Shown here piece by piece: positions 16,079-52,934 of a DNA stretch of 64,000 bases (its first letter is position 1; every line of letters starts with the position of its first letter). The notes under the pieces were generated by a model that worked only from the letters and a program-made list of their open reading frames with translations, did not search any database and was not told the origin of the DNA. The stretch comes from Bimastos eiseni (taxonomy: Eukaryota > Annelida > Clitellata > Crassiclitellata > Lumbricidae): assembly GCA_959347315.1 (NCBI GenBank), contig OY365814.1:6252034-6316033 (forward strand), written 5' to 3'. A program made the position numbers and the translations under genes.

Positions 16079-16119
16079 AACGACAACCAAGACCGAAAAC
16101 AGCTCCGTCTATTACGATG
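16079..16119 (+). CDS. Short upstream exon of gene copy 1 (41 nt)
   Basis: This is bounded by a polypyrimidine tract and acceptor (TATTCAAG, ending 16078) and a strong donor (GTAAGATTG at 16120). Homologous exons with the same donor lie at 31591-31622 and 63004-63041. Their lengths are 41, 32 and 38 nt, all differing by multiples of three, as expected of coding sequence. In the frame that leaves phase 1 (compatible with the CARD exon) it reads TTTKTENSSVYYD, a hydrophilic linker. The alternative frame (leaving phase 0) reads RQPRPKTAPSITM. The choice is unresolved. Confidence 0.5.
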
Positions 16120-16699
16120 GTAAGATTGTTCACTATTCAAAATCAATAATATAGCAACACGCCATACAACTTGGCCACGAGACTAAACAGTTTGAATGGA
16201 GTGCATGGTTATCTTCCTTTTATGAGTGTTTTGCTAACGGGGACAATAATTTACAATATATTATCATGTTGATGAAACTAATCGTTAGTCAGTTCAACAG
16301 TTTAAGAATAATGTTGCGAGAAGGAAAATCATAAATACTTCCATATTAACTCATACAAGAAAAAGATCTCTCAGCTATCAATAATTATTGTGAAGGAATG
16401 TGTCACCAAATGTATTTGCGATGGTGAGGACCAGTCATGAAGATAAAGGAAAAGTCTGAATCACAAGATTTGGAAGAATATTGAGCAGGGAGATTTGGTT
16501 GAACATCATCCCATTAATTTTCTATGAGAGTAAAGCACTTACGCGAAAGAAGTTCTTTTAATAAGAACTGAAACTCAAAATGTTATCGTAATGAAAAATT
16601 ATTGCAAGAAACCTACAGAAAAGTCATAGTAGAAATTACTAAGACTTATTAATTTTAGCTCTCTTTATCTCGGTTGCCTGTATGATCAAGAGATGCTAT

Positions 16700-17035
16700 T
16701 TAAGCTGTTGGAATAGCATAGCATCAACACTGGTTTGACGAATACCGCCTTTCCCTAGACCTTAGTCCATCCTCGTGATGTTGGCACATTGGGTGACACA
16801 GTTTCTCCACACACCCTGTCCTTGGCACACTCTGTGGCCTCTTTTTTCCAAGTCATTCCTCCGTCGCTGAGGTTCTTTGAGACCACGTCCTTCCAATTCT
16901 ATCTTGATCTTCCTCGTTTTCTTCTCCATCAACTTACGATCCAGTTCATTGCTTGCTTCGTGATTCTGTCCTCGTCCATGCGATGTAGATGTGTCAGCCA
17001 TCGTAGCCGTGTCTTTCTAATACCGCATGCATTTG
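16700..17035 (-). mobile_element. LINE ORF2 3' end fragment (RT C-terminus)
   Basis: The minus-strand translation gives the C-terminal region that follows the RT in many LINEs: 'WLTHLHRMDEDRITKQ', then 'RRKRGRSR.NWKDVV', then 'GMTWK' and an ending with 'CANITRMD'. Two frames are needed, so it is broken. It has no RT core. It lies in the intron region between the short exon and the CARD exon of gene copy 1. Confidence 0.65.
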
Positions 17036-18424
17036 AAAATGATGCTTCAATCAGTCATACCTTGTTAACTACAGTGGTTCCGAATCTTGTGAATCAGTTG
17101 CAAAGCAATGCATTGATAATTTTCTTCATTTGCATCTTTCGTGAAATTTCAAATAAACCGATTAAATAATATCTATTGCTGTCTTCCGTTTCAAGTGTTG
17201 CATCTTTTTGCATTTCAGTTGTACGATCTTCCACTGGAAATGTTGGACATTATCTTACAAAAGTCATATCTATATTTGGTGTTGGGTGAAAAAATTCCAG
17301 TAAAGCAGAGAGACGAAGAAGTGATCAGATCGCTCACATCGGTTGATGTCTGCTTTTCTCGAAGAATCACTAAACAACGGTTCAAAACGTCAATCTGGCG
17401 TTATCTTGAAGGTTATAAACATTACCCCAAATTACAGATTAACATATTTGATAACGTTTTCTAATCGGAAGTCTTACTTAGCGCAACTAACTCAATGCAT
17501 GAGGTCATTTCCCCATTATGGCCTATGCACTTTTAACAGCGCTGGAACTGTCCACACCACAAAAGCGCTGACTTCTGAAGCCTTATTCATAATGGTGGGT
17601 TAATTAGAAACAAAGCTATCATCAATAAGTCAAAAGTATTACTCTATAATGGTCATGTAACTACCGTGGATGAGTCACCACCGGAAGGCCTTTAGGTTGA
17701 TAAAATTACGTAAGTTTTGAAACTAGACCTTCTATGCGCAGCCAGTGCAGCGATTTTACGATCAGGGATATGATAATAATAATAATATTTTTCATGGCAT
17801 AGAAGTTGACGTATTTCATTACAGTATTATTTACAGAATTTAATCTAGTTGTCAGAGTATTACAAGTTTGAAATGAGTTCTGATCGAAAATGGTCAACAC
17901 TATGTTGCTTTAAGGGCCGCATTTAGAATCAGTGATATCTAGTTTTCATTCTCTCAGGCGGGGCAATCTTTAAGGCATGCGGTCTTATGGCTTCATGTGA
18001 TGTTCTAAAAAATGAGTCCATTGCTTACCCACGGAGAGCCCATATGACGCCATTGCTTCTGTGATGACATATCGCCGCATTCTAGCCAGGAAACTCTGTA
18101 TGCGAGCCTTTTGAATCGATGTTGCAATGATTGGTTACGATGGCAATAATTATGAGCTACGTTAAAAAAGACGGTTAACTCTATTAGATTATTTGGCAGG
18201 CAAACCAGGGCAGTGAAAAACTGTTCACCTAATCCTTTGAATAATATTTCGGAATTTATATGTCATGGTTGAAGTTGATCAAGTACCTAGCCATGAAATA
18301 CCGCGGCACAAATAAAGTCCGTGCCTTCAAATCAAAGTGAGCTATGTTTCTCATTAACTTCGAGCAAAAAAGCACGTTGCAAATATTTTATTAGAACAAT
18401 GCGGATTATTTTATATCGTTTCAG
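17036..18424. other. No gene seen (intron side of gene copy 1)
   Basis: AT-rich sequence with a short (TAATAA)n stretch near 17772-17790. A frame at 17141-17464 has no recognisable motif. Any exon between the short exon and the CARD exon should lie here, but I could not identify one. Confidence 0.35.
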
Positions 18425-18712
18425 ACTTTTATGGAAAAAACAATAAAAGATCTGCAATAATTAGAAACAACCGAAAGTATTTCTTGGAAAATATTCAATC
18501 GAATGAAGAGTTAATTGATTCGCTGTTGTCTCTCAACTGCATAACAGAAGAGCAAAGTTATTTCATTCGAAAACAATATTCAAACCGAGACAGGAACGCC
18601 GAACTTCTGTATTATGTGAGAAACTTCGACGAGAAAATGTTTTCAACTTTCGAAAAGTGTCTTCAACAAACGAATCAAGTTGCAGTAGCAAAGATCGTCA
18701 GAAACGGTGGAG
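18425..18712 (+). CDS. CARD exon, gene copy 1
   Basis: This encodes a death-fold CARD of about 85 residues: a basic helix 1 (IIRNNRKYFLENI), helix 2 'ELIDSLLSLNCITEEQ', helix 3 to 4 'RNAELLYYVRNF' and the closing 'F..CLQQTNQVAVAKI'. CARDs join like-with-like to assemble caspase- or adaptor-activating complexes in the cytosol. The exon starts after a TTTCAG acceptor (phase 1) and ends phase 1 at a weak donor (GGAG/GTTCAT), at the same place as the sister exon at 33584-33865. Unlike the sister it has no in-frame ATG: one base is missing where copy 2 has ATGAAAAGA. It must therefore be joined to an upstream exon or be defective. Confidence 0.8.
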
Positions 18713-18959
18713 GTTCATGAAACAATAATTACCTACATTTAATTTCAGTTTCATTTGAAAATATTGTGTCTTAATTCAAATGCACAATGCAATGCATCTA
18801 CATTGATTTTCGTTTTAAGCGCTCCTCGATATTCTGATGTAATTTTACATTTTCAGTGTTGCTCTGTATTGGTTATAGTCAACGTTTAATTTAGCATCAC
18901 AACTGTATTTTCTGGATGCCCAGTATCTGGAAAGGTAGGTTATGCAACTATACTGTTCT

Positions 18960-19150
18960 AATTGAAATTGAAATTCTTGAAATTTGATATCGCTCTTCTT
19001 CCAACATATTTTACTCAGAAGTGCACACACTTCGACGGCGCAATTGCAATTGTACTGCAGAGCAATTGTGCGCGAAGAACTTGCTTAAAGTCACTGGCAC
19101 CTCACTCAGCACACACTGAGCCGAACGCTCTAACCGATCAGCCACCGTGC
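18960..19150 (-). mobile_element. tRNA-derived SINE, second copy
   Basis: The reverse complement starts 'cacggtggctgatcggttag' (A box region) and continues through the same body as 2369-2600, ending near 'tatcaaatttcaag'. The B box seen in the first copy has been deleted. It is followed on its outer side by an AAT microsatellite. It lies in the CARD to TRADD-N-like intron of gene copy 1. Confidence 0.75.
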
Positions 19151-19162
19151 CCCACATGGTCC

Positions 19163-19164
<2 letters not shown>

Positions 19165-19206
<42 letters not shown>
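19165..19206 (+). repeat. (AAT)n microsatellite
   Basis: About 14 perfect AAT units, then degenerate AT-rich trinucleotide sequence to about 19380. Confidence 0.9.
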
Positions 19207-19208
<2 letters not shown>

Positions 19209-21757
19209 AATAAAATGTTAATACTATTAATATTAATAATATTATTGTCCCTAATGTTGTTATTATTATAATTATAATTTTTATTATTATTACTATCGCT
19301 ACAGTTTATTATTCTCATTATCATTAATTACGATAGTAATGCTTACAAAATAACGATAATAATATAAATAATAATAATTAAAGTCGCAAAGTAAGGAACA
19401 TACCATTAGAAACCTAGTTGATGCTGAAACAAACCCAAGCTTGAGTTTCGAGCAATACTCGTCGAATTTAAGGGAATTTTGCAGTTTATGTGCAAGGCGC
19501 TTTGTGGCCTAACCCCTTACTGTGAAATTTTTTAGTTGTAAATGTTTCGTATAGGTCTACTGCGAAATTCTTTTGAAAGAAATAGCAAATAATGAAATTC
19601 CTCCTGTTTTGCAAATATCAAATTCATGGCAATATCAAAACAATTGAAAACCAATAGATACATTTTTTGGTTATCAAAGTTAGTCAAGGTTAGATTTTGT
19701 GTGATAGAGTTTAAAGCACGGTTCTGCGCACAACCCAACATCACATTCTACTTTACATACCTACTTTCCTCCCATTCACAGGTTCAGGGCCCATATCCAT
19801 GGGGTTGGAATAGTTTGTTCTCCGAATAGATCTTACACCTGAAGTAACTATTCTCCGAATAGGCCGTGGTCGTCGCTGCCATGGATGAGCGAGAAGTAAA
19901 CCGCGGAATAGTTGCACCTGACATAGGACCTGCGAGACTTAGCTTTACGCATGCGCAAAGATATTCATTCATATCGCTTAATTAAAATTGCAACGGTTAA
20001 GATATAAAGTCCTAATTCACATTTCGTGAAAATCAATCAAATTTATAAATTGTGCGTGCATGATAAAATGCAAAGAGTTCAGTATCTTAATGTTAGAGCA
20101 AACAAGATGGCATTTTGTTCAAATTTTACTAAATTAATTATTACTAGGCCAACGTGGCAGAAGGCAACGAGCCTATACTCGGCACATCATACGCCACATC
20201 ATCAGCCACTTCGTCCGAAGTTAAGCTTAGTAGCAATTTCCCAGGACGAAAATGGAAGGCATAATAAAATGTGTTATCTCCATAGATCTAGAGGACTGCG
20301 ATGATCTAGAAACACTCTCCAGCGTTATAAACTTCACGAATGCGACGAATTATAGCAATGGTCGCCATTTTGATCATAGCCCTATTCGAGAATAGCGGAC
20401 TTACACCTAGGGTCAACCAGGAGAAGGCCTAACTTTATGTCCAGCGTAACGCACAATTCCCGCCTCATGCATAGCAGTATTACGCGATACTTCCGGGAAG
20501 GCCAGTTTTATGTCAGAGGTAAGAGTTACACCCTGGCTACTCCAACTCCATGCATATGACCCCAGAAGAACAAACTGTGCAAATTCTTTGTGCATGGACC
20601 CTCTTTGCCGTGGCTGGTACATAGCAACAGACGTTTGTCTTGTACCACGATGGCTAACAACATCCTGAACTACACTAGTGTGAAATGTTGACAACATTGA
20701 CAACTACACCCTATTTTCAAAGCAACCAGTTTTCCAAAATAACTGGTAGCTACTTAACCACGAGCTATTTTCGTCCTCATATCAACTGGAATATTTTATC
20801 TATTCAAACGTACCATCAGTGTAATTTGAAATAAGTTCTCTGAACAGCACTAGCAGCTCTGAAGAAGTGTCATTATTGTCCATGTAGCCTAAGCTGTATA
20901 GCCTTTCCCAAGCAGATCGTGCAGTATAGTCATGACAATTCTGGAAGTCTTAACGATATGTCTGGATTGTTCCAACTGCATCGCAGGTCAAATATGTGCA
21001 TTAATTCGTTCCAAATATATCCGCTATCAGTTTCGCAGATGAGGTAGGGCCTATGACTTCACATCAGTTTATTCGACATTTATTTGTGGAAAAAAACAAA
21101 TTTATCTCAGCCTTCAAGAAACGAGTATAGAAAAGAGTGTTTCAATTTTCATTAACCGCAAAAAAATTCTTCAATTTTAATTCATCGCTATCAGCTGCAG
21201 AATCAATACGAAAAACAATGTTAATTGCTAAATGCAATGTTACAATCATCAAAGTGCGTGGATTGCACAGACTACCAAAAACGTGAAATTACTTTTGACA
21301 TAATGTGTGAAAATCTGCAAAAACATAATATTACGTTTGAAACATGAAATGGGTTCTTTCTACTCTTAATACAATGTAGATCCAGTTATATGGCGACCTC
21401 TATTAGCTTCCCTCAAAAATCTCCCACCATTCAAAGAAAGTAATTAATGAGCTGCTATCTTTTCTTTCGTTCAACACATCGTTTATAATCTATTGAGGAC
21501 ATTTCATAAATTGACGTGTTATAATTGACTGATAAATGATAGAATATCATACGAAAGGCATTCTCATATTTTGTTACAATGCCTAAATGAGGATTTCGGT
21601 GATTTCAGTTACTTTCTGCTTTCAGGTACTAGTAGCAAATCTTAAAATATCAATAAACTAACATATCTTAATTATTTGATGTCCATCACAACTACAGCAG
21701 AAACCATTTCCCTCCAGTCCTTATCAACCTTAACGATTGAACTGTTCTCCATTTTAG
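19207..21757. other. No gene seen (intron of gene copy 1)
   Basis: AT-rich intron. Repeated words such as 'tattctccgaatag' occur near 19810-19870. A minus-strand frame at 20413-20703 has no recognisable domain. Nothing further can be supported. Confidence 0.4.
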
Positions 21758-22126
21758 TCGTAATAAAAGTCAAAGTTGCAAATCGTGGTGCAAAGAGGAA
21801 AGCGTACATAGAACCGCAGCTGCTTCATCAAAGAATTAGTGACCTGCAAAACACGAGAAAACCAAGATCTTTTCAAACTGATGACCTGATCAATCGACTG
21901 AAGAAGGATGGCATAGAAATCCTTAACTCTCAACTATTGAAACAGACTGTGGTTGTTTGGATCTGGTGTCAATCACAAGCAGCCGTTGAAACTATTCAGA
22001 AACTGTACGAATCGAATCAACTGACAGATATATTCTTTGCTCTTGCAGATATTCAACCACCTGCCTGTGAAATCATCAAATCTAAAGTGTTCAACGTTGA
22101 TAGAAATCAATTCAAGAAAACAGTTG
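21758..22126 (+). CDS. TRADD-N-like domain exon, gene copy 1
   Basis: This is an exon of about 123 codons. Its start follows an ATTTTAG acceptor (phase 1) and its end is phase 1. The fold pattern is a short strand (VVIKVKV), two helices, 'INRLKKDGIEILNSQL', a strand 'VVVWIWCQS', then helix 'AAVETIQKLYESNQLTDIF'. The strand followed by 'S-x-x-A-x-x-x-L-x-x-x-Y-x-S-x-x-L' resembles the TRADD N-terminal adaptor domain. This is a pattern match by eye. The donor is GC rather than GT (G/GCAAGTTC), where copy 2 has G/GTAAGTTC. If GC is not used, translation would stop at TAG (22138). About half the residues agree with the exon at 50581. Confidence 0.7.
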
Positions 22127-22525
22127 GCAAGTTCTTATAGTACACATCATACTAATAGACTGGGGCACCATGAGCGCAGGGGCACCATGGTCATCTGGCA
22201 TATTTTTGATTATTTACAGTACTTTTAACTTAATTTCGATAGCAGTTTGAACTTCCAGTTTATTTTTCCTTTTGATGTTGTTCGGGCTTCATGTTCGGAC
22301 TGTTATATATTTTATTCTTAAAAATATGTTCCCGGCTCACCAAAGTAAAATGTTACCACATATTTGCGAAGATTGTTATTTTTATAACGCCACAAGTAGC
22401 GAATTTATTTTTGATGAGTGGTATAATATTTTTTCTATGATTCATTTACATCATGCTATAAATTGTTTGCATGACTAATACGATATTGACATGTATTTTT
22501 ACACAAGACTGCAGCATGGGGCTGT

Positions 22526-23371
22526 GGGGCACCATGATCAATGCTGATGAGACCCCACAAGCGCTGGAAGTTTTTTAATTTTTTGTTTTAGTTTTTTGAT
22601 CCCTGGAAACTTAGGGTCGCATGCAAGTCGGTGGAGGTCCTAGGGCTAGGTGGAGCAAGACTATAGTAAGAAATGCAGAATAATTATATCACATTTTGTA
22701 TTGTGTAACCTACTAACGACGAAGCTAAAACGAAGCTATAAGAATTATTAGCATCATGTGTTATCGTCAACAAGCCTACGCTACAGAGAAGAACGTCCAA
22801 AAAAAATTGACTCCAAAGGACATTGGTCTGGTAGATGTAACTCACACAAAACGAGAATTCTAACGATACAATACAACTGCTATCAGACTTCCTGCTAGAA
22901 AAAAGGATAAAAGTAAACCATGTTGCGCAAGTCATAGACTTGAACGGTGACAAGGTGGGAGTAAAATATTTGGGGGAAAAAACAGCATCAAGGATCGGAA
23001 CAATAATTTCAACATTTTGTTCATCCAACTGAATCACAAACGTGCACCATTCTTTTTATGGACATCGTGAAAAAATTGGATATATCACTTTCTGTTGGTG
23101 CCACAAACGCGCCAGTAGAAAGCGGATTTTCTCATTCTTTTTCGCTGAATATAATCTGACAATTATTTTTGATTAAATTTTATGCTGCCTTCAAAGGTGA
23201 AGTGTGTGAAACCGAGATGGCTGTTTTAGATTTGTTCGTATTGGGTTTTTGTCAGAAACGCTCGGCTAAGTTTATTCGGTCTGCTACTTGTTTCTGCATG
23301 ATCTAACTCGCATTTAATGTTCACTTAATCGATGTGATCATTGTGCCCCACATCATTGATCATGGTGCCCC
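22526..23371. mobile_element. Non-autonomous DNA transposon with GGGGCACC termini
   Basis: The left end reads GGGGCACCATGATCAATG and the right end (23349-23371) is its inverted match with a small change, giving a MITE-like unit of about 850 bp. Further copies of GGGGCACC(A/G)TG lie at 22162, 22179 and 23378, so the termini seem to be stacked or reused. No target duplication was confirmed and no transposase is coded. It sits in the last intron of gene copy 1. Confidence 0.5.
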
Positions 23372-23479
23372 GTAGTAGGGGCACCGTGATCAGGTATGAG
23401 TATGTGTGATTTTCTTACAAAATTGGTCATTATGAGAAATTCATGAAATGGTAAGGCTTGTTGGTGCTAAAACACGTGC

Positions 23480-23665
23480 TAAAAGGAGAGACAGACAAAG
23501 AGTGAGACAAACTTAAATGGATTACTTGTAGAATAGAGGAGCTAATCCACATCAGTTATGAATCAAAACGGTTGAGAAGGAAGACATACGTTATAATTTA
23601 TATTTCTAAAATTGAAGGATTGGACTGAGTGAGTGTAAATACAATCGACAGATTCGAATAAAAAC
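23480..23665 (+). repeat. Dispersed block, shared with 12240-12450
   Basis: It has the same ordered words as the block at 12240. Nearby (23690-23755) is a GC-rich, self-complementary stretch around 'accgcgggtgcaccctaccc' and 'gggtagggtacgggtgcg'. No gene was seen in 23666-24263; a C/T-rich tract occupies 23810-24000. Confidence 0.55.
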
Positions 23666-24263
23666 AATGCACAATATGGCTCTGTGGGTATACCGCGGGT
23701 GCACCCTACCCGAACCGTAACCGCGAATACGGGTAGGGTACGGGTGCGTATGTTACATAATGCTGCCCCTACTTCTTGTATGCATGTCAATCTCTTATTT
23801 TCTCATTCTTAATCCTCCTTCTCCTCATCCTTCTTTCACTCCTGCCGATCCTACTCAAAATTTTCTCCTCCTTCACCGCTCCTCTCTGCTCCTACTCTGC
23901 CTAATCCTCATTCTTCGTTTTTCTCCTCATCCCATTCTTCGTACTCCACAGTCTGTTCCGTCTCGTCCTCATCCTTTCATCGCCTTTCTTCCTCCAGTCC
24001 TCTTAACATCAATTTGAGAAAAGGTAAAAATATGACATATCATGTTATGTTATATAACATATGACAAAAAATATAATCAAAACATAATTACCAAAATACA
24101 TGGTCAAAATTCTAAGTAGGCTCAAATGTACATGTATGATGAAACAGATAGCAAAAGAAGTAATATGTTTTCAATTATTTCAGTAATAATATTAATCACT
24201 ACTCAAGAAGCTGATTCTAAAGTCAATTATTTGCGCGAAATGATAATTGTGTTTTCATTGTAG

Positions 24264-25174
24264 TAATGAATACGATTTCCATTAACTTCACTGAGAGGAT
24301 CGACGTAAAAGGAATTACAAAAATGCTGAGTGTAACTAAACTTGGAAACAAAATCTACGTCTTCTATCAGCCAGTTAGTTACTCTCATGTAATCCGTGTC
24401 TTAGACGTTCGTAATCAATTTCGTCATCAGAAGGAAATCAGGTTAAAAGAGATGAGAGATGGCACTGACATTGTCTCCTGTGAGAAGGAAAACTGTCTCT
24501 ATCTCTCTGATTTCGAGTTGATGTGCGTCTGGAAGATGACAATTAAAGCAAGTGACAAACACAAAGTCATCAGATGGTTGCACCTTAATTACTCTCCGCG
24601 TACTCTCTCAGTGACCAGGAATGGTCACTTATTGATATCCAGCCCAAAGTTAATAGGTTTGAATATTTATGGATCAAGTGCAGAACTTCTTCGCTCCATT
24701 CCGTTTCCAAGAGACGCCGAGATCGAATATGCAATTCATGCGGTGGAAACATCCATTGGAAATTTCTACATACTGCACCATCGGATGGAAAATGAAGTGC
24801 GAGAGAATGGATCAAGTAAAAGTGGGAGCAACAAGATGTGGGTCGTAAGTGAGTTGACCAGCGATGGACAGATTGTCACCCGTCGTTTTATTTTCTCAAA
24901 TGAACTAGAAACGTTGAATGATTCTCAATATCTGTCAATCGATTCAGCTGATAGAGTGTTTGTGGCTGACTCAGGAAATCATAGAGTGATTATGTTAAAT
25001 TCCGATCTCAAATGGAATCGAATTCTTTGCCCAACAAAAGAGGAAGAAGGAGTTGAAACGATGATCCGATGGCCACGGAGATTGTATTACGATGAAGAAC
25101 AGAAGCAACTGATCGTCGGGAGAGGATATTATCGTCCATGGACAATTTATATTTACACTTTGAGTGAAAAATGA
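24264..25174 (+). CDS. Beta-propeller (NHL-like) exon, gene copy 1, terminal exon
   Basis: This exon follows a TTCATTGTAG acceptor. Joined in phase 1 to the previous exon it gives an unbroken frame of about 303 codons ending at TGA. Repeated blades read 'TKLGNKIYVFYQ', 'CEKENCLYLSDF', 'LSVTRNGHLLISSP', 'VETSIGNFYIL' and a clear NHL-type blade 'DSADRVFVADSGNHRVIML' (about residues 225-245). About five or six blades are present. NHL propellers usually bind proteins, glycans or RNA, so this is the likely ligand-sensing part beside the CARD and adaptor domains. An ATG near the exon start (24266) exists but is probably internal. Copy 2 is its clear homologue. Confidence 0.8.
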
Positions 25175-26060
25175 CTAACAATACATCCATATATTTTGAC
25201 AAACAATATTGTTTCAATGTATTCCAATATTTGGAATCAATCTTCTAATTTTTGTTCCACTATTGCTGGGATATCTACAGTCAAACATTAATTAGTAATT
25301 GACAGTACCTTGTTATGTGATTAACATGTAAAGGAGAACAGTATTTGGTCTGTTATGGAAACAAGTAAAACGATAAAATATGATAATGATAGTGTGAACG
25401 CATTTTGGACACTGCTTAATTTAAGTCGTATTAACTGTTATTATATACATATCAGTCAAGATATATTTAATGCAAATTTTGAGAGCTGCGACGATCGATT
25501 TGCAGGCGATTTGCAGTCAGTTAATTCGGTTAAAAATTCTGCCAAGGCAGGAGGTGGAAGACGAAGAGGAAGAGGAAGAGGAAAGGTTGTGCACGTGATG
25601 ATGGCAGCGCGCGCGAACTTTGAAGACAGATGCTGACTAGCAAATTTAGTATTCGTGTGTTCGAGTTTAGAGTATATGGCAGATTAACGTTGTGTGCTGT
25701 TTCGTCGACATTTGCGATTTGAGTTGATATTCTTTCTGTTTGAGTTAATAAGAAAGGTTTGAATTAAATCTGAGTCTTTTATTGAAGCCATTGCCTACAT
25801 TGAAAGTCAGTCGATAGTTAGGGAAAGAGGCGAACTTTGAATGTTGGTCCGTTTTATGGAGAGGGAGAAGGAGGGTTGACAGATGGATAAATCAATACAA
25901 TATTTACCCTAATTGAGCTTGTTACCTTACAAAATTCTATGTAAAAATAACGTGTTGAAGTCAGTGATCGATTTCTTAAAGAGGACAGTGAAATTTCAAT
26001 GTTAATTGCAATAATTTTCAACCCGGTTTAAATAAGTTTCATATTACTTGTTTTTCTATT
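25140..26060 (+). repeat. Gene 3' end and 3' flank, duplicated at 57379-58860
   Basis: From the last codons of the propeller exon onward, the sequence matches 57379-57690 and then 58365-58860 almost continuously: the words 'cactttgagtgaaaaatgact', 'tgtattccaatatttgga', 'ctgctgactagcaaatttag' (variant) and 'gtcgatagttaggga'. The second locus carries extra inserted sequence. The unit was therefore duplicated together with the gene. Confidence 0.85.
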
Positions 26061-26383: not shown

Positions 26384-26409
26384 GACAAATGCAACCTACG
26401 ACTAAATAA
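26384..26409 (+). repeat. Short repeated end sequence
   Basis: The words 'aaatgcaacctacgacta' and 'aataaaa' recur identically at about 35611-35636. They look like a common 3' end of an unidentified repeat that ends in A-rich sequence. Confidence 0.45.
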
Positions 26410-27020: not shown

Positions 27021-27039
27021 CTGCTTGGCACGGGTCTTC

Positions 27040-31590: not shown

Positions 31591-31622
31591 ATGAACAGAA
31601 TGAAGCTCCATCTACAACAACA
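31591..31622 (+). CDS. Short upstream exon of gene copy 2 (32 nt)
   Basis: Acceptor GGAACAG ends at 31590; donor GTAAGATTG follows at 31623, identical to that of 16079-16119. The flanking intron start ('taagattgt', 'aataatagagcaac') is also conserved. In the frame that would suit the CARD exon this copy has TGA stops. In the other frame it reads EQNEAPSTTT. Either the second frame is the true one or this copy is broken, in which case the ATG in the CARD exon at 33595 could serve as start. Confidence 0.4.
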
Positions 31623-33583: not shown

Positions 33584-33865
33584 ATGAAGAAACTATGAAA
33601 AGATCCGCTGTAATAAGAAACAATCGAAATTATCTCTTTAGAAATATTCAAACGAGAGACGAGTTAATTGATTCGCTTTTGTCCTTCAGCTGTATGACGG
33701 AAGAACAAACGTACTTCATTCTGAAACAATGTTCAAACCGAAATAAAACCTTTGAACTCTTGCACCTTGTGAGATCCTTCGACCATGAAATGTTTTCACA
33801 TTTTCTGAAGTGTCTTCGACAAACGAACCAAAGGGCAGTGGCAAGGGTCCTCGAAAGCGGAGGAG
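33584..33865 (+). CDS. CARD exon, gene copy 2
   Basis: This is closely similar to the exon at 18425-18712: VIRNNRNYLFRNI, 'ELIDSLLSFSCMTEEQ', 'LLHLVRSFDHEMF' and 'CLRQTNQRAVARVL'. It is a CARD of about 85 residues. It follows a TCTTTTCAAAG acceptor in phase 1 and ends phase 1 at GGAG/GTTAAA. An in-frame ATG at 33595, absent from copy 1, sits directly before the domain and could be the real start. The next coding exon (50581) is about 16.7 kb away because the intron has filled with transposons, against 3.0 kb in copy 1. Confidence 0.8.
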
Positions 33866-41472: not shown

Positions 41473-41486
41473 CACCCGAAAAATTG

Positions 41487-41783: not shown

Positions 41784-41785
41784 AT

Positions 41786-43102: not shown

Positions 43103-43155
43103 TATTCCTCGTCGTCGTCGAATAATATCTCGCTTTAGCTTTTTATTTAATCTCG

Positions 43156-43504: not shown

Positions 43505-43752
43505 AATCTGAAATGAAGCGTTATCAACACCAGTTTAGATCCCGATATGTACTGCGAGTGGCGTTGTTGATATAAGTTTATTTAACGACGCATCCATAAC
43601 GATGATGATATGCGTCAAACACGAACAGTTATACAGAGTACATATTTACATTGTCGATAAGTGTTTTTATGTGTGTCTCTCTTCTAGTTTTAATGTTTCA
43701 TATGCAATAATGTCTTATAAGTAATATAATATTGTATGGTAGTGTTCATTGT

Positions 43753-46700
43753 CTATATACAGTAGTCCTGGATCTTCCGACCAGAAACTGCCAGCCACTT
43801 GTAGATGGTGTCCAAGCAGCTGGTTTGACCGAGCGCGGTGCTCAGTTCGTACGGCCAGTTTTTCCGTGCGCACATCCGGATGAGTTCGTCCTGGAGGCCC
43901 AGCTGGGCCGGGCACTCCAGCAGGAAGTGGCGCACGGTTTCCTGGACGTCACCGCACTCGTCGCAGTTCCCGGTCGGGTGGCGGCCCCACAGCTTCATCT
44001 GTGGGTTTAGTAGGCAGTGGCCCAACCGGAGTCTGGTTATGATGACTTCCTTACTCCGGTTGGGATCGTTATACTGTTTGGCCATCCTGAAGTTTGGCTC
44101 CAGGGCTCGGTAGTGCGAGCCAGTGTCGGAGGTGGTCCATTCCGCTTGCCACTTCCCGAGGAAGTGGTCTTTGTACTTCGCTCGAGCTTCCTGGAGCTCG
44201 AGCGTCGTCAGGATGGCGATGATGTCATTGTTTAACGCTCGCTTGCAGAGGGAGTCAGCGGTCTCGTTTCCCTCGATGCCGGTATGTCCGGGGATCCAGA
44301 CCAGGGTTGGGGTCGACTGGGTGCGTTGAGCGTATGCGTCCAGCACGTGGAGCAGTTCCGTGAGCTGCTGTGGTCTGGCAGCGGACTGCTGTCGCTCAAC
44401 GCTCTGGATCGCGGCGAGGGAGTCGGAGAAGATGACGAGATGGTGTGCATCTGCGCTGGCGGCCCATTCCATAGCCCTCTTTATGGCCTCCAGTTCGGCT
44501 GCCAGGACCGATGAGCCGTCGCTCATTCGGCAGCTTTCGTGGTGGCCGCTAGAGGGCACGTAGAATGAGCACGACACCCTACCTGCTGCGTTCTTGGCTC
44601 CATCCGTGTAGACAGCCACTCGCGCGTCGTAGGAGCGGATGTGATCTTTGACCAGATCCCTCTTTTTCAGAGGGTCGTTCAGGTCGCCGATCTTCTGTGT
44701 CAGAGTGGTGTCTGTCATGGATGGTCGCAGCAGCCACGGTGGTGTTGTGGTGCAGGCGAGCGGTTTGGTTTTTGGTGGTTCGATCTCTTGGTCGATGTGT
44801 CTTGTTTTGATGCGGATGGGGTCGGTGTCGTCATTGGTGTTTTTCAGCTTCCGACCGCTGGTGATGGATTGCGTCGGGTGGTTTGGGATCGCGTTGACCT
44901 TCGTGATGAGCTCCATCATCAACTGTTTGCGTCGTAGGTCGAGTGGCACTTCTCTGCATTCTACCTGCAGTGCAGCCAGACTCGTTCCTCGGAGCGCTCC
45001 AGAAGCGATACTCAGTGCCTTGTACTGGATTGTACTAAGCACCTTTTTCTGGTTTCTGGAGGCGCTGTCGTAGGCGACGCAGCCGTAGTCGATGACGGAG
45101 CGGATGAGAGCACGGCATATCATCAGGAGGGTGTCTTTCGATGCTCCCCAGTGCGAGCCCGCAATAGCGCGCATCAGGTTGAGGCGCGTCTTGCAGCGAT
45201 CAGCGATGTAGCTGATGTGGTCGCACCAGGTGAGATGTCGATCGAAGATCACCCCCAGGAACTTGACGTTGTTGTTGTAGGTCAACGGAGTGGTCCCGAG
45301 CTTCAGCGGTCGGTGGGCTGCAGGTGTGCCGCAGCGGTGAAATTCTACGGCAACCGTTTTTGTTGACGACACCTTGAAGCCCCATCCGTCAAAGTACTTT
45401 TTCAGTTGGTCCAGATAGTTTTGGAGATGACGCCGGTTCACTTCCGGGTTTGGGCCAGCTCTCCAGATGGCGCTGTCGTCCGCGTAGAGAGAAAGCCTTA
45501 CGTCGTCCTGTGGCTCCGGTATGTCGTTCAACATGATGATGAAGAGCACGGGGCTGATGACACTGCCCTGTGGGGATCCGTTCTCCATGAGGAAGAGATC
45601 GGACAGCTCTGAGCCGACGCGGACACGGATGTGTCGGTCGGTCAGGAAGTCCCGGATCCAGTTGAACATTTGACCGGAGATGTTGTGCTGCTGTAGCTTC
45701 GACAGCAGCCCATCTGTCCACATTAGGTCGAAGGCCTTCTCTAAATCTACGAAGACGCCAGTGAGGCTGTGCTTTGAATGAATGGCGCGTTGGATGTCGT
45801 CTTGAAGGCGGACGATGTGATCCTGGCAGCTTCGCAGTCTGCGGAAGCCCGACTGGTGCTTGCTGAGGCGGTGATTTGTTTCCATGTGCCAGGTCAGCCT
45901 GTCGGTCACTAACCGCTCCATTAGTTTGCACAAGACGGATGTCAGTGCGATGGGGCGGTAAGAGTTTCCGTCGTAGGCTGGCTTTTGTGGTTTCTGGATA
46001 GGGACAACGATGGAGTTCTTCCAGCAGGCCGGAAGTCGTCCATGTTGCCAGACCGCGTTGTACAGCTCCAGCAAGGCTAGCAGACTTGGATGCGGAAGCT
46101 GGGCCAGGATCTCGTAGGTGATGGTGTCCTCTCCTGGACTCGTGTCCTTTCTACAGCGCAGGAGGGCGATTCTCAGAGCCTGGATGGTGAGAGGCTCGTT
46201 GAAGGGCTGGTCGTCTGCCGGCAGCTGTCCCCCATGGAGCTCCTTCGAGTGCTCGTCCTCAAAGGCGGATTTGCGCTCTTGGAACTCCATGGTATGGTTC
46301 CTGTTGCTGCTGACATCTGAGAAGCACCTCCCAAGATGATTCGCCTTCTCCTGGTTTGTTGTGTAGGAGCGTCCGTCCTTCTTCAGAGTTGGTATGGCCG
46401 GTCGTGATCTCGCACCGGTCATCTTTCTCATCGTTCCCCAGACTTTTCCGAGCTTGGTCTTGTCGCTCAGCGTGGTGCAGTAGTCTCTCCAGGAGGTCTT
46501 CTGCGCGTTCTTGATGACTCTTTGGGTGATTCCTTTGATGCGTCGGTATTCTTCAGCATCCGCCGGGTGCCTGGTCTTCTGCATCTTCTTGCGGGCCTCT
46601 GTGCGCTCCTCGACGTGGCGTGTGCACTCGTCGGTCCAGTACGGCACACTCTTGACCTTCTCCTTGGGAGGAGTCGATCGTGGAATGTGCCGCGTGGCGA

Positions 46701-47556
46701 TCTCCAGCAGCGAGCCGAGGAAGTTGGTGTGGCTCGCTTCGATATCGTCGGTGATGTGTGCGACGGTGAGTTCTGCCCTGCAATCGTCTTTGAAAGCCGT
46801 CCAGTCAGCCTTTCGGTGTAGCCACCTAGAGATGAAGGCTTTCTCAACAGGGACTGCTTCCTCGATGTTGATGAGGATGAGCGAGTGGTCGCTTCCCATG
46901 GAGTCGTCTAGGACCGTCCAAGTGCACTTCCGTGCCAAGGGCGTCGAGGCCATAGCAAGATCGAGGTGACCGGCAGCTCCGGTGGCGTGGCTGGCGGTGG
47001 TCGGCGCGCCGGTGTTGAGGGCGACGAAGGCGTTGTCCTCCATGTCGTCCTCTAGTCGGCGTCCTCGTGCATCGGTGGTTCTGCACCCCAAGAGCGTGCT
47101 GTGCGCGTTGAAGTCTCCCAGAATGACTGCTGACCTGTCTTGGAAGAATCGAGAGTAGATGTCTGGTGGCAGAGCGTTTCCAGTTTGGCGTGGTCGGTGG
47201 TAGACGTTAACAATTTTGATCTTACCTGGTAGTCCGTCGAGGGTGATGGTGATCGACTCGGTGGTGCTGGTCGTTGAGAAGGCGATGCCGGTCTTCACGA
47301 ACGTTGCAACTCCTCCTCCAGCCTCTCCAGTGGTTCGGTCATGCCTCACACAGGTGTAGCCGGGTAGCTCGAACTTGATGTTAGTCCTCAGCCACGTTTC
47401 CTGTATGCAGATGATCGTCGGCGGTGTCCGCATCTCGGAGATGCGGTGCCTCAGCTCCCCTACGCGGGGTCTGAGGCTACATGCGTTCCACTGGAGTATT
47501 TGGAGGTCCGTGATGGTGGCTGTCGGTTGCAGTGGCTGACGCGGCGCTCGTGGCAC
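43753..47556 (-). CDS. LINE ORF2: endonuclease, reverse transcriptase, RNase H
   Basis: This is an unbroken frame of 1267 codons. AP-endonuclease: WNACSL at about 23, IQETW about 50, GDFNAHS about 146, SDHSLI about 220. Reverse transcriptase: 'YRPIALTSVLCKLMERL' about 530, VDLEKAFD about 601, 'NGSPQGSVISPVLF' about 658, YADD about 689, 'KFLGVIFD' about 763. RNase H: YTDGAK about 981, AELEAI about 1019, SDSLAAI about 1043, GNETADS about 1093, so all four acidic positions are present. A C-terminal knuckle C-x2-C-x8-H-x4-C lies at about 1196. All catalytic residues I can check are intact, so the enzyme could be active. It overlaps the ORF1 end by about 80 bp in a different frame. Confidence 0.92.
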   Translation of the reverse strand: MPRAPRQPLQPTATITDLQILQWNACSLRPRVGELRHRISEMRTPPTIICIQETWLRTNIKFELPGYTCVRHDRTTGEAGGGVATFVKTGIAFSTTSTTESITITLDGLPGKIKIVNVYHRPRQTGNALPPDIYSRFFQDRSAVILGDFNAHSTLLGCRTTDARGRRLEDDMEDNAFVALNTGAPTTASHATGAAGHLDLAMASTPLARKCTWTVLDDSMGSDHSLILINIEEAVPVEKAFISRWLHRKADWTAFKDDCRAELTVAHITDDIEASHTNFLGSLLEIATRHIPRSTPPKEKVKSVPYWTDECTRHVEERTEARKKMQKTRHPADAEEYRRIKGITQRVIKNAQKTSWRDYCTTLSDKTKLGKVWGTMRKMTGARSRPAIPTLKKDGRSYTTNQEKANHLGRCFSDVSSNRNHTMEFQERKSAFEDEHSKELHGGQLPADDQPFNEPLTIQALRIALLRCRKDTSPGEDTITYEILAQLPHPSLLALLELYNAVWQHGRLPACWKNSIVVPIQKPQKPAYDGNSYRPIALTSVLCKLMERLVTDRLTWHMETNHRLSKHQSGFRRLRSCQDHIVRLQDDIQRAIHSKHSLTGVFVDLEKAFDLMWTDGLLSKLQQHNISGQMFNWIRDFLTDRHIRVRVGSELSDLFLMENGSPQGSVISPVLFIIMLNDIPEPQDDVRLSLYADDSAIWRAGPNPEVNRRHLQNYLDQLKKYFDGWGFKVSSTKTVAVEFHRCGTPAAHRPLKLGTTPLTYNNNVKFLGVIFDRHLTWCDHISYIADRCKTRLNLMRAIAGSHWGASKDTLLMICRALIRSVIDYGCVAYDSASRNQKKVLSTIQYKALSIASGALRGTSLAALQVECREVPLDLRRKQLMMELITKVNAIPNHPTQSITSGRKLKNTNDDTDPIRIKTRHIDQEIEPPKTKPLACTTTPPWLLRPSMTDTTLTQKIGDLNDPLKKRDLVKDHIRSYDARVAVYTDGAKNAAGRVSCSFYVPSSGHHESCRMSDGSSVLAAELEAIKRAMEWAASADAHHLVIFSDSLAAIQSVERQQSAARPQQLTELLHVLDAYAQRTQSTPTLVWIPGHTGIEGNETADSLCKRALNNDIIAILTTLELQEARAKYKDHFLGKWQAEWTTSDTGSHYRALEPNFRMAKQYNDPNRSKEVIITRLRLGHCLLNPQMKLWGRHPTGNCDECGDVQETVRHFLLECPAQLGLQDELIRMCARKNWPYELSTALGQTSCLDTIYKWLAVSGRKIQDYCI

Positions 47557-48879
47557 CGGAGGAGAGCGCGTAGGCGGTCGTCATCGCGCCGCACACCTGC
47601 TCAATCGGAATCCTGAAGACGGCCTGGATGGTGGTAGCTAGGATCTCGATCAGTCTAGAGACAGAGATAGCGCCACCGTTAGTCTCCATGGCTCCGACGA
47701 ACAGGGTGCAGGCGCGGTTCAGAGCGTCAAGCACATCCCTCTGTACCCTACCGGTGTCGGTCGTCGCCACCTCCTCCTGTTGTCCGTCGGGCACGACAGG
47801 AGTTGGCGCGGTCGGTGGGTTCACCTGCGACCGTTTACGGACTGGGATACCAGAGGGACGCGAGCCTTCCGACTCCGCCTTAGCACTTCCCCCGGCGCTC
47901 GGAGCACCGGCTGTCGCCGTCGTCGTGTTGACCGCACCGGCCGTTGTTCCCGTCGTCTTCGTAGTCATCTTTGTCGCGGAAGCCTCCGTGGTGTTCTTCC
48001 GTGAGCGAGCAGTCCGAAGGGCATCGCTGTACAGCCTCCCTTTCTGGACGCTGATGGTGGTAGCGGCCTTGGCCAGCGTGTATTTCGGACAGCTGTTAGT
48101 CATCGCAGGATGGGGGCCGCCGCAGGCTGCACACTTCGGCTGCTCGCGCTTCGAACACTCGGTGTGCTTGTGGTCGCCGGCGCAGATCCCGCATCGTTGG
48201 TTCTTCCTACAAAATTTGGCTACGTGGCCGAAAGACAGACAGCAGAAACAGCGTGTAGGTGCTGGTATGTAATCATACATTTTGAAACTTAGAAATCCAA
48301 TATGCAGTTTGGCAGGTGCGACTGAACCAGGTTCCAGTTCAATCTTCACCGCCCTGGTCGGGGTTTTTACCTTATTCTGGATCTTAAGGATCCGTTCTAC
48401 CTTGGCTACACGGAGGTTTTCCAGACTCTCCAGGCTGCTAAAAATATCGGCATCACTTAGGTGATGGATACGCCTTTTATTACCTTTTGCACGTACCTGC
48501 CTCTGTGTCTCACAACTTCACGTGGCTCGGACACTTTGACCTGGTACCCACAGAGGTCTGTGGTAGTGAGCAGTTGAGCCCTGTGTGCTCTGCTCTCAGG
48601 TCCGCCCAAGTGAACACGCACACACGTTGCAGACGGGGCCGGCACATCCGCTGTCAGGGGGCCAAACTGTCTCTTCAGCTCCGCCCTGACCAGTGGAGCG
48701 TTAATTTTAGCTAAACAAACGCCAATAAACTCAATGAACAACCGGTTCTCAGCAGACCGGTTTATTGTCACATGGGCGGGAGGGGCCTTCTCCGCTGCCG
48801 TCACCAGTGAGGCAGGTTCGGCGCTCTTCGGAACGCTTGGCAGCTTCCGCCTCGCTGGGGCTTTTGCCGATTTCGTCAT
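47477..48879 (-). pseudogene. LINE ORF1 (gag-like), split by a frameshift
   Basis: The upstream part (48879-48457) has a basic start and an RRM-like fold region ('FIEFIGVCLAKINAPLVR'). Around 48475, at an A-run, the frame shifts. The continuing frame (48480 to 47477) holds 'HHLSDADIFSSLESLE', 'AKLHIGFLSFKMYDYIPAP' and three zinc knuckles starting CFCCLSFGHVAKFC, CGICAGDHKHTEC and CAACGGPHPAMTNSC, then a Thr/Ala/Ser-rich tail. It would bind LINE RNA and deliver it with ORF2. A farther upstream segment (49206-49012, 'PMDLTVL') is in the first frame but separated by two stops (49012 and 48952). Confidence 0.8.
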
Positions 48880-49259
48880 CGGCTTCTGGACCGTAATCTT
48901 ACTGTCCTTACGGTAAGAGTCCAGATTTACCTCGGTTTTGCGAATTTTTCGTCATTTTTCGCGTTTGGCAGCTTTATCTGCCTTGCTGGTGACGGTCTTA
49001 AACACGGCCCCTCAACCATCATCGTCAGAGTCATTTTCTGACTCAGTTGTGCAAATAAAATATTTGCTTCCGCTACCGTCGGACTCGTCACTGCGGCTCG
49101 CCCGTTTTTTAGACGGGGTCAGCACCGTCAGGTCCATTGGCGTGCCAGCATCGGGTCGAGCTCGAGGCTCAGACCCGGAGGCGAGGGGTCTCTCGCTAGA
49201 ACTCATGTCCAGCGAGAGGCGCGTACGCAGTTTTAATCTAGGTTAGTACAGTTATGTTA

Positions 49260-49560
49260 TGCTAAGACTAGTTATATTTAAGCGACAGTTATATCGATAG
49301 GGTATTTAGTATTTAAAATATCTAGACGCAAGATTAGGGACGATTACATAGTAGACAATGCAATGTAATACAATGCGCTTACACAATTTTAATTTAAACT
49401 AGTATCGTTAAATTAGACTAAAACTAGTTATATTTAGCAACAGTTAGATCGATACAATATTAAAATTTCTGAACGCAATATTTAGAGACGATCATATAAT
49501 ATAATATACAAAGCAGTTGAATCTAATATCTAACTAACAGTAACAGAAATATTAATCGCA
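49260..49560 (-). repeat. Two 156-bp tandem units upstream of LINE ORF1
   Basis: 'actagttatatttaagcgac' at 49267 recurs as 'actagttatatttagcaac' at 49422, with matching downstream words ('cagttagatcgata', 'cgcaa.attag.gacgat'). Tandem units before ORF1 suit a LINE 5' UTR promoter. 49570-49800 has irregular 'acgcgtgtgtatcac' words and no gene. Confidence 0.55.
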
Positions 49561-49804
49561 AATGTATATTAAACACGTGTACGACTCACCGCGTGTAATC
49601 TTTCTTTGTCTTCTTTGTCTTAGTCACCTGGCTTCCACACCTGGATTCCGCATGTACGTGGATTACTGCGCGTGTATTACGCATGTGTATCACAACGCGT
49701 GTGTATCACTACGCCTGTGCGTGTTGTAAAGTAGAAGTAGTCACCTCTTCTTCTCAGTACTGCGACCAACCTCATCGACCGCTAACGATCGAATCCACCT
49801 CAAT

Positions 49805-50240
49805 GTACGTTCTCAGCTATATACCCGCTACACAAAGGTTCTTTTATAAGGGCCGTTGCCAAAGGCCACGGTCATTATAATTATGCGCGCAGATGCGCTG
49901 CGTGCCAAAGCCTTCCCTCGCCTCTTCCCCTTCCCCGCCCTGCCCTGTACAACTTGGGTCAGGATTAGGGGAGGGGAGGGAGAGAGGGAGCCGCCGCCCA
50001 TCCCGTGCCGATGTATTGGCCCTCACGCCAACAAATAGAATTAGTGCAATTGGAGAACAATAGGTGATTGGCAGGTATTGCAAAGGCCGTCAGCCGTCGC
50101 CTAAGCCACGGCTACTTAGGCATGTAATTCCTAAGTAATCGCACGCCTTACCCTACGCCGTACACGGCGCCAGACTGTCCGCATTCCTGACATTCCTGAC
50201 ATTCCAATTGTGAGCCCGAACCGGCCTATACAAAACTACT
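49805..50240 (-). repeat. Polinton right inverted terminal repeat
   Basis: The reverse complement matches 40895-41252 and carries an additional block of about 75 bp ('gaccgtggcctttggcaacg' region) that the left copy lacks. A 'tgtcaggaatg' word is duplicated here but not on the left. Confidence 0.9.
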
Positions 50241-50246
50241 AACGCA
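50241..50246 (+). repeat. Polinton target-site duplication, right
   Basis: AACGCA, identical to 40889-40894. 50247-50580 is ordinary intron with nothing recognised. Confidence 0.85.
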
Positions 50247-50580
50247 CGTTGCAATTTGTTGACAATTTACCAGTCCTAAAACTGGCGATTTTGCGGTGAT
50301 TTTTCGTATTTAGCGCATTTCAAATATCTGATCAGAAGCTATATTTCTCCGAAGTGCAAATTATCATAAATAATGTCAAATTTTAGTTCTAGGCAGTCGA
50401 TAATGAAGTTCAATATCAGGAGCTTAACTAATAGTAACTAGACAATATTGCAAAGTCACTAACAGCTGAAAACGGCCCTTTCAGGTATTGACTCAATTGT
50501 AATTGATTAACTCAAGCAGCGGTTTAAACCACCATCCAAGAGTCGAGTCCTACATACATTGTATACGCTTTGTGTTTTAG

Positions 50581-50949
50581 TTGTAATAAAAGTTGAAGTC
50601 AAAACTTGTGGCACAACTTGTGTAGCTTCAATTGACCCACATCTGCTTCATCCAATTATATGGGACCTTCGATACAAAACGAAGCCATGGTCACATCAAA
50701 ATGATAAACTAGCCTGTCAACTGAAAGATGAAGGCATAGAAATCGTCGACTCTGAATTGGGGATTAAGAATATAATCATCTGGATCTGGTGTCGTTCACA
50801 AAAAGCTCTTGATACTATTCAGAAGTTGTATGAATCAAACAAGCTGAGAGATGTGTTATCTGGTTTTGGCTATATTCGTCCATCTGCATATAAAACTATC
50901 CAATCGGAAATTATCAAAATTGAGCGCAGTCAGCTCAAGCAAACAGTTG
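50581..50949 (+). CDS. TRADD-N-like domain exon, gene copy 2
   Basis: This is the homologue of 21758-22126 with the same length (369 nt) and phases. It starts after TGTGTTTTAG and ends at a strong G/GTAAGTTC donor, phase 1. It shows the same pattern: VVIKVEV, 'QLKDEGIEIVDSEL', 'IIIWIWCRS', 'ALDTIQKLYESNKLRDVL'. If the donor were not used, the frame would end at TGA 50961, so splicing is needed to reach the propeller. The TRADD-N assignment is by pattern. It follows the Polinton by 340 bp. Confidence 0.75.
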
Positions 50950-51089
50950 GTAAGTTCTTATGAATGCATTCATTATAAAGAAAGCTTGATATATTATTTT
51001 GCTGACATATCCTTTGAAGGTCATGGCAATTAAATTCCATACTTATTAGATTAAAGCTGCTACTCTTCATCTGTGACCTTGATATCTAG

Positions 51090-51690
51090 TTGGATCAGGA
51101 GCTAACCTTGAAGCCAATTTGCATCGCCTTAGTCGTGATTGTTTTTGCCAACGTCATCAGATTCGCACCGTTACACGTTCTCTAACGGCCAGCGCTGCAA
51201 CTACTCTTGCCCGTGCTTTCATTACAGCACGGCATGATTACTGTTTAACCTTCTATTCTGGTCTGCCTACTAGAAAGGCTGTCTTGTATCGATACTGTAC
51301 TGCGAACTGCAGCGAGCCTCATTGGCCAAATAATAAAAAACAATATGATCACGTGATAAGATATTACGTTGAAGGTTTTGTATTGGCTTCCTGCCCAACA
51401 GCGCATTGAGTATTATAGTGTTGCATCTCTGCATGGTCTGGCTATGCGAACTTGGCCATGCATCAGCCAACCTAATAGACCTTCGTCAGCTGACATCAAG
51501 GGCCGATGTAGTCGCTCCTCTCGCTCTATTTGGTTTTCTGGTTATAATATACGCCCGTACAGCAGCAAATGCTAAATCGAGCATTCTCTGTGATAGACCT
51601 AGAGTTTGGAATGGCCGTTTTCTGGAGGGTGACAGGACAATAAGCGTTAGACTGTGAAGGACTGAGTCATTATCTTGGAGATGCCCCATC
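51090..51690 (+). mobile_element. L2-like LINE fragment
   Basis: The translation gives 'HQIRTVTRSLTASAATTLAR', 'FITARHDYCLTFYSGLP', 'LASCPTAH' with an out-of-frame 'WLPAQQRIEY', and 'RPRVWNGRF', ordered blocks of an L2 ORF2 C-terminus. It is broken by stops. It lies in the last intron of gene copy 2. 51691-52011 has nothing recognised. Confidence 0.75.
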
Positions 51691-52011
51691 CAAATGCAAT
51701 TAATTAAACAATTCTGCCAGTGTAATAGAAATAATCATATATAAAATATAGTTAATGATATAATAATGTGGCGTGATAAGTTAGATTTAATTTAATTTGA
51801 GATACTGTACCGTTGAACCGACAATCAGTTGTCATATGCGCCTTATATCATTAGATAATCGAAATAATAAACGAAATTATCTTTAAAAAAGGAGTAAGCA
51901 TATGATCATCATGGGCCTACTTCTGTTTAGGTCGCTTATCAACAGTTCAAAACCATGACAACAAATAGATAAGAGTCAACTGTTTTATATGAGAAATTAT
52001 TTTCATTCTAG

Positions 52012-52934
52012 TCACCCGTCCGATTTCCGTCAAGTTCACAGCGAGACACAACATGAGACAAGCGGAGGAGCTGTTTGGAGTGACTAAACTGGGAAATGAA
52101 ATCTACGTCCTCTGTCGTTCACCACTTTTTTCTGTCATTAATGTTATATATGTCTTTGAGGATCGAGATCAATTTCTTCTTAAAAACACTATTCAAAGAA
52201 ACAAGTTTATATCTCCAGAAGATATTGGATCCTGTGAACAGAAAAATTGTCTCTACGTCTCAGACTATTTGACGGAGCACTGGTGCATCTGGAAGATTAT
52301 AAGAAAAACAGTAGATCAATACATGACCATCAAATGGTTCGAGACTCTATATCCGCCACGTCCTCTGTCAGTGTCCAGTGATGGTCAATTATTGATAGTG
52401 AGTCATTGGTCATCAATGCTGAATATCTATGAATCAGACGCAACACTTATATCTATTCAGTTACCAATTCATATTAAGCAACCCTGTCATGCGGTGAAAA
52501 CATCAATTGGGAATTTTATCATTCTTCACAGGTCAATGCAAGAGATGAAAGAGCGAGAGAGTGGATCAAGTGGGAGAATCAAGGAGTTCGTGTGGGTCGT
52601 AAGTGAAGTGACCAGCGACAAACCGATGATCATCCGTAGGTTTATTCCTTCAAGCGAAACACAAATCCTAAAAGATCCCATTCATCTATCACTCGATTCA
52701 GACGACCAAGTGTTTGTGGCTGACAGAGAGAACAATAGAATGATTCTCTTAGATTACGATCTTAGATGGAATCGTATTCTTTGTCCAACGAAAGAGGAAG
52801 AGGAGACGAAAACCTTCAGACCATGGAGAGTGTGCTACGACGTAGAAAAGAAGCAATTGATTGTCGGAGAAGGATGGTTTGATTCAAGAACAGGAGGATG
52901 CTGCGTTAATATTTACAATTTGAGTCCAAAATGA
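52012..52934 (+). CDS. Beta-propeller (NHL-like) exon, gene copy 2, terminal exon
   Basis: Acceptor TTTCATTCTAG, then phase-1 entry. Joined to 50949 the frame is unbroken: the codon across the junction is Val, and the first ATG (52053) is internal. Blades parallel copy 1: 'TKLGNEIYVLCR', 'CEQKNCLYVSDY', 'LSVSSDGQLLIVS', 'VKTSIGNFIIL', 'DSDDQVFVADRENNRMILL' (the NHL-type blade) and 'YDVEKKQLIVGEGW'. It is about 307 residues and ends at TGA. It differs from copy 1 mostly in the loops between strands. Its likely role is ligand or partner binding next to the signalling domains. Confidence 0.82.

Follow-up and report, generated by a model that had tools for sequence, protein, structure and literature searches.

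A large annelid gene family joining a CARD to a six-bladed NHL propeller has features of intracellular sensors

The window analysed here, a stretch of 64,000 nucleotides from the lumbricid annelid Bimastos eiseni (GenBank assembly GCA_959347315.1, contig OY365814.1; C9:6252034-6316033 of the 660-Mb assembly of 118 contigs), carries two tandem copies of a gene that encodes a CARD and an NHL-type propeller. These copies belong to a lineage-expanded family without a NACHT, and we judge, with somewhat more confidence than doubt, that its members are intracellular sensors in which a variable propeller face binds ligand and the CARD signals. Across the family, the exons keep their order, junction phases and splice sites, the copies are numerous, the CARD and the propeller can be recognised as such, predicted joins are present in public sequences, and the variation of the propeller is concentrated on one face. 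A preliminary description of the window had proposed an expanded innate-immune or death-receptor family; we infer an immune role for the CARD-propeller family, and nothing in our analysis gives positive support to the death-receptor idea.

Exon structure and spliced relatives

Copy 1 consists of at least five exons on the + strand, with introns of 1.0 to 3.0 kb between them. Splicing in silico yielded a single open frame of 599 amino acids, the remaining two frames of the joined exons containing 40 and 41 stops. A search with this joined protein retrieved four public proteins at E values of 0.001 or less, two of which carry predicted joins. P0056 (531 amino acids, from a contig of 1,884 bases) runs from the F-box-like piece through the CARD into the propeller, and P0057 (368 amino acids, from a contig of 1,408 bases) comprises the 5' exon and the F-box-like, CARD and alpha/beta exons, ending a few residues further on. 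P0058 and P0059 run from the N-terminus through the F-box-like piece to the CARD, which brings the public proteins with predicted joins to four. Since exons that are separated by introns in copy 1 are joined in the public contigs, these contigs derive from spliced RNA, either directly or as retrocopies. The exons of copy 1 are:

16079..16119, + strand: short 5' exon (RQPRPKTAPSITM), basic, ending in phase 0, with a last codon that is a possible ATG
17219..17411, + strand: F-box-like exon (LYDLPLEMLDIIL...), phase 0 to 1, present in P0056 to P0059
18425..18712, + strand: CARD exon, phase 1-1, Pfam CARD E 9.7e-10 (exon alone 5.1e-10)
21758..22126, + strand: alpha/beta ('TRADD-N-like') exon, phase 1-1, GC donor
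24264..25174, + strand: NHL propeller, last exon, with stop codon, identified by Pfam NHL and the fold of the relative P0056

The short 5' exon is preceded by AG and followed by GTAAG. It has blastn relatives at about 31591-31622 and at 63004-63041 of the window and in the loci L012, L011 and L014, and its 'TAPS' aligns within P0057. This exon opens in the middle of a codon, so that at least one further exon or a start must lie upstream; none was identified in front of position 16079.

Hidden Markov models (HMMs) built from other copies found exactly two CARD, two alpha/beta and two propeller exons in the window, in the same order and on the + strand, in agreement with the preliminary description. 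Its 'two complete sets of three exons' hold for the three exons named, but the gene has at least five, and no F-box-like exon could be detected in the window for the second set. The F-box-like exon, the recurrence of the short 5' exon across the family and the defect of the second set had been overlooked.

The same arrangement was seen in 20 further stretches of 10 kb, drawn from the top of the list of propeller matches in the same genome: 17 of them contain the four main exons in the order F-box-like, CARD, alpha/beta, propeller. The stretch of L010 may simply end short of its CARD and F-box-like exons, since such exons are listed at C9:6327406 and 6326126, and in L015 and L028 one or both of these exons are missing. 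By eye, the junction phases agree across copies (F-box-like exon 0 to 1, CARD exon 1-1, alpha/beta exon 1-1, propeller start 1). The donor of the CARD exon is GT in 19 of 20 cases, the remaining one not being placed. The F-box-like exon has a GT donor in 12 of 18 copies and a GC donor in one; the five that the script left unplaced appear by eye to be GT donors that lack a G in front. GC donors are generally rare in animals. The alpha/beta exon has a GC donor in 12 of 22 copies and GT in the corresponding position in the remaining 10, and reading through beyond this donor gives GKFL followed by a stop in 8 of the 22.

Identities of the encoded domains

Two domains are firmly identified, the CARD and the propeller, which is six-bladed and of the TRIM-NHL type. 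Pfam PF00619 (CARD) was found at E values of 0.01 or less in every one of the 19 exons of the family that were scanned, including the two of the window (best 1.3e-11), and profile searches matched the CARDs of NOD1, BIRC2 and caspase-9 with E values of 0.002-0.03. In the model of P0056, the CARD part has six helices, with a predicted local distance difference test (pLDDT) score of 85-95 for residues 91-150 and of 60-70 for residues 71-90. Pfam NHL matched the two window propellers with E values of 4.8e-6 and 6.8e-8, and 16 of 20 family exons at 0.01 or less. In the same model, the propeller is built of NHL repeats and closed, with six blades, and its nearest solved folds are the NHL domains of TRIM2, TRIM3, TRIM71, Thin and Brat.

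By contrast with these two domains, the 'TRADD-N' and 'F-box' labels denote resemblances only. The alpha/beta exon had no match of this identity to Pfam or to PDB sequences; its structure model is alpha/beta, though of low confidence, and TRADD-N was not among the 50 Foldseek matches listed, with a weak listing by VIA. The TRADD-N superfamily is marked by an RRM-like alpha/beta fold. It is also described, in the relevant sections of PMC8195603, as having a uS motif in the beta2-beta3 turn. This motif was not seen in an alignment by eye in which the turn was placed from the low-confidence model; in this turn, a T mostly comes after Q, K or E, and copy 2 has N-I. The coupling to a death fold within an expansion, another mark of this superfamily, was found, as the CARD lies directly upstream and P0057 joins both. 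Of the single protein with CARD, TRADD-N-like domain and NHL propeller that had been proposed, the open frame, the CARD and the NHL propeller were borne out, and the TRADD-N label is tentative.

Pfam F-box-like_2 matched 2 of 18 members of the F-box-like exon below the cut-off (best E 0.019) and the consensus over its whole length with an E value of 0.076. No F-box chain was among the four PDB profile matches of this exon up to an E value of 10. The piece has three predicted helices with pLDDT values of 43-65 in the P0056 model, and P5 and L6, inside an LPLE stretch, are invariant.

Pfam revealed no NACHT in the window exons or P0056-P0058, and neither RING nor B-box in P0056, P0057, P0058 and the window exons identified here. 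The 'NLR-like layout' without a NACHT is a fair analogy, but not a statement of NLR membership. PADLOC returned no match for the five window exons on which it was run.

Copy number and arrangement in the genome

The genome counts are minimum figures, and some of the places counted contain stops. Among 678 candidates for the propeller, at least 125 places were scored (142 matches including split pieces), at least 150 alpha/beta places among 242, and at least 150 F-box-like places among 209; at least 150 CARD places were used of 387 candidates (157 matches). The 125 propeller places are distributed over C9 (63), C13 (27), C14 (18), C15 (6) and other contigs (11). In 89 of them, a CARD followed by an alpha/beta exon lies upstream on the same strand, and the wrong-side order occurred once; a control with random strands gave a mean of 46.5 and a maximum of 58 in 200 trials, a high figure because the control keeps the positions. 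Likewise, of 150 F-box-like exons, 108 are followed by a CARD no more than 8 kb away and one has it upstream, compared to 53.9, and at most 70, with random strands. These counts bear out the claim of an expanded family.

Two candidates for other arrangements were rejected: an alpha/beta exon in a frame of 1817 amino acids at C13:24809642, which is a run of N, and a lone CARD on C4, which is an ordinary copy that is broken. Many COX1-like stretches, some of them nearly full length, were noticed on the nuclear-sized contigs C1, C4, C5, C6, C8, C15, C16 and others (35 matches in all, C118 included); those on nuclear-sized contigs are probably nuclear copies of mitochondrial DNA. The mitochondrial sequence on C118 bears on the kind of animal. 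An echinoderm origin, to which published TRADD-N expansions of starfish had pointed, was rejected because its COX1 reads AAA for the Lys of the conserved motif NHKDIGTLY and ATA where Met is conserved. The gene order nad3, trnS, nad2, cox1, trnN, cox2, trnD, atp8, trnY, trnG, in which proteins were named by eye, is that of the annelid ground pattern and suggests an annelid in preference to a mollusc; COX1 hints, tentatively, at a clitellate.

Variation among copies

Propeller blades were delimited manually, using the DSSP string of the P0056 model. Loops vary more than strands (mean entropy 1.36 versus 1.06 bits, p=0.001), a sensor-like pattern that had been noted in the preliminary description. 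The split between the two faces of the propeller is sharper still. Among the 20 copies of this genome, the top-face loops (DA, BC) have 1.66 bits, compared to 0.92 for the bottom-face loops (AB, CD) and 1.06 for the strands, and the respective values for 47 public propellers are 2.29, 1.12 and 1.40 bits. The permutation p-value for this split was 5e-5 in both sets, which is the floor for 20,000 shuffles, and columns and sequences are not independent. Most indel residues lie near BC loops (562 of 766 in our set, 1,715 of 2,369 in the public one). The public propellers P0022, P0032 and P0054 have long, acidic, repeat-like inserts around the BC loop of the fourth blade.

The pooled ratios of non-synonymous to synonymous divergence (dN/dS), from at most four close pairs, were 0.43 for the F-box-like exon, 0.56 for the CARD, 0.46 for the alpha/beta exon and 0.59 for the propeller. 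Single pairs gave 1.00 for the CARD (one pair) and 1.38 for the alpha/beta exon (one pair with very few changes), and the ratio for the F-box-like exon was undefined in two pairs with a dS of 0. Synonymous divergence was unequal among the exons of a pair in 6 of 10 close pairs (p<0.01, uncorrected and non-independent).

Copy 2 and other features of the window

The exons assigned to copy 2, and one exon of a further copy, are:

31591..31622, + strand: probable short 5' exon of copy 2 (EQNEAPSTTT), weak blastn match to the copy 1 exon (E 0.095), followed by GTAAG
33584..33865, + strand: CARD exon of copy 2 (family HMM, Pfam CARD)
50581..50949, + strand: alpha/beta exon of copy 2, GT donor (family HMM)
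52012..52934, + strand: NHL propeller exon of copy 2 with stop codon (Pfam NHL, family HMM)
63004..63041, + strand: probable short 5' exon of the next downstream copy (blastn to 16041-16180, E 3.8e-13)

The CARD, alpha/beta and propeller exons of copy 2 are all open and amount to 523 amino acids when joined. The family HMM detected no F-box-like exon for this copy in the window, the next best match having an E value of 0.4. As that exon begins in phase 0 and ends in phase 1, the 5' exon and the CARD are out of frame when it is absent. Copy 2 therefore probably has a broken or incomplete 5' end, or starts elsewhere. On C9, F-box-like matches resume at 6320786 and 6326126, beyond the end of the window, and the other exons of the copy at 63004..63041 would probably do so as well.

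The intron between the CARD and alpha/beta exons of copy 2 measures 16.7 kb and holds an antisense, reverse-transcriptase-like open reading frame (ORF). By eye, the - strand at 43753-47580 and 47477-48951 holds an ORF of 1275 amino acids that looks like the endonuclease and reverse transcriptase of a long interspersed nuclear element, together with adjoining ORFs that have CCHC-like motifs. Fragments of a second reverse-transcriptase-like element were noted, also by eye, at 7070-9132 on the - strand. Two remnants, a stretch at 57380-57622 that is 81% identical to 25143-25392 (where the propeller exon of copy 1 ends and its 3' flank begins) and a short CARD-like one at 6199-6276, are traces of lost copies. 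A direct repeat at 61503-62180 has two units that are 97% alike and one of 68%.

Proposed function and alternatives

A complete gene product would start with a short N-terminal stretch, followed by an F-box-like piece of three helices, the CARD, the small alpha/beta piece and, finally, the six-bladed NHL propeller. The variable face, formed by the DA and BC loops, may bind ligands of invaders or of damaged self; binding would cluster the proteins and bring their CARDs together, and the clustered CARDs could then recruit a CARD-bearing partner, for example a caspase or an adaptor. More speculatively, the F-box-like piece might dock SKP1-cullin, so that bound targets would be ubiquitylated, and isoforms might arise from the alpha/beta exon, which is of phase 1-1 and can be skipped. 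A fuller version of this proposal seems doubtful to us, albeit conceivable: a new class of animal immune receptors with more than 100 copies, in which a single chain unites CARD, NHL propeller and an F-box-like arm, with diversity arising from gene conversion exon by exon and from top-loop variation, capable of both CARD assembly and ubiquitylation, and switching isoforms through the skippable alpha/beta exon with its GC donors (12 of 22).

Several observations weigh against sensors of the proposed kind. P0056 skips the alpha/beta exon with its frame kept, and none of P0056-P0059 contains the join between the alpha/beta exon and the propeller, which is deduced from conserved splice sites and phase. 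Pooled dN/dS values below 1 give no sign of positive selection. A conserved bottom face and conserved strands combined with a variable top face would also fit non-immune substrate receptors.

One alternative, which we regard as unlikely, is that the proteins are substrate receptors of SKP1-cullin-F-box (SCF) complexes, the propeller picking substrates, the F-box-like piece docking SKP1, and the CARD and alpha/beta piece serving as scaffolding, in which case the family would have expanded for degrading many foreign or self targets and not for CARD signalling. Propellers are common substrate readers, and the F-box-like exon is kept across copies with its invariant P5 and L6 and three predicted helices, but the F-box identity is weak in Pfam, PDB and model alike, as detailed above.

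It also appears quite unlikely that the family consists of non-immune, TRIM-NHL-like regulators whose propeller binds RNA or self proteins and whose expansion served, for instance, transposon control or development. The nearest folds are those of TRIM-NHL proteins, several of them RNA-bound according to their PDB titles; however, neither the exons nor the spliced relatives showed a RING or B-box by Pfam, and every one of the 19 exons scanned encodes a CARD. To our knowledge, a hypervariable face in so large a family would be unusual for developmental regulators. Lastly, a mostly decaying family, in which transposons have spread duplicated debris, the bulk of the copies, and few genes still make protein, would account for the stops in some propeller places, the exon loss of copy 2, the broken copy on C4 and the two window remnants, but is very improbable in view of pooled dN/dS values below 1, conserved splice sites, spliced relatives in public data and four main exons that are open in 15 of 21 units (the 20 loci and copy 1 of the window, at most 10 kb each).

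Relation to known systems

For the sensor family that we favour, the nearest described kind, judging from the sections of PMC8195603 on such expansions, are the DED-TRADD-N-WD40 proteins of Branchiostoma and the HEPN-Ig-DED-TRADD-N-WD40 proteins of Crassostrea gigas. Shared with these are the lineage-specific expansion, an N-terminal death fold, a small alpha/beta adaptor, a variable C-terminal propeller and the lack of a NACHT, whereas the present family has a CARD in place of the DED and a six-bladed NHL propeller in place of WD40, an F-box-like exon is added, and the uS motif was not seen in the alpha/beta exon. The host here is an annelid, and annelids are not listed in those sections (PMC8195603).

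Compared to the TRIM-NHL ubiquitin ligases (TRIM2, TRIM3, TRIM71, Thin, Brat), RING and B-box were not found and a CARD is present instead. NOD1, other NLRs and Apaf-1 likewise have a CARD and a sensor module in one chain, but here no NACHT or NB-ARC was found and the propeller is of NHL type. Another annelid expansion is the set of 26 TRIM genes of Enchytraeus crypticus, tied by its authors to innate immunity (PMC8460440). Its passages name TRIM, and a text search of it gave 0 occurrences each of 'nhl' and 'death domain'; some of these TRIM genes might conceivably belong to the CARD-NHL family. Our literature search found no published description of a CARD/NHL architecture, which is weak evidence of absence as many results were off-topic. 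The family looks like a set of undescribed internal immune sensors.

Expanded death-fold proteins with variable sensors are among the main routes by which animals that lack antibodies may achieve recognition breadth. The layouts described so far have a NACHT, or a DED with WD40, and a large annelid CARD-NHL family would extend them to a further lineage and a further architecture. A ligand-binding site can be predicted from the variable propeller face, which makes a direct test possible, and the possible F-box link, if true, would place CARD signalling and ubiquitylation in one chain.

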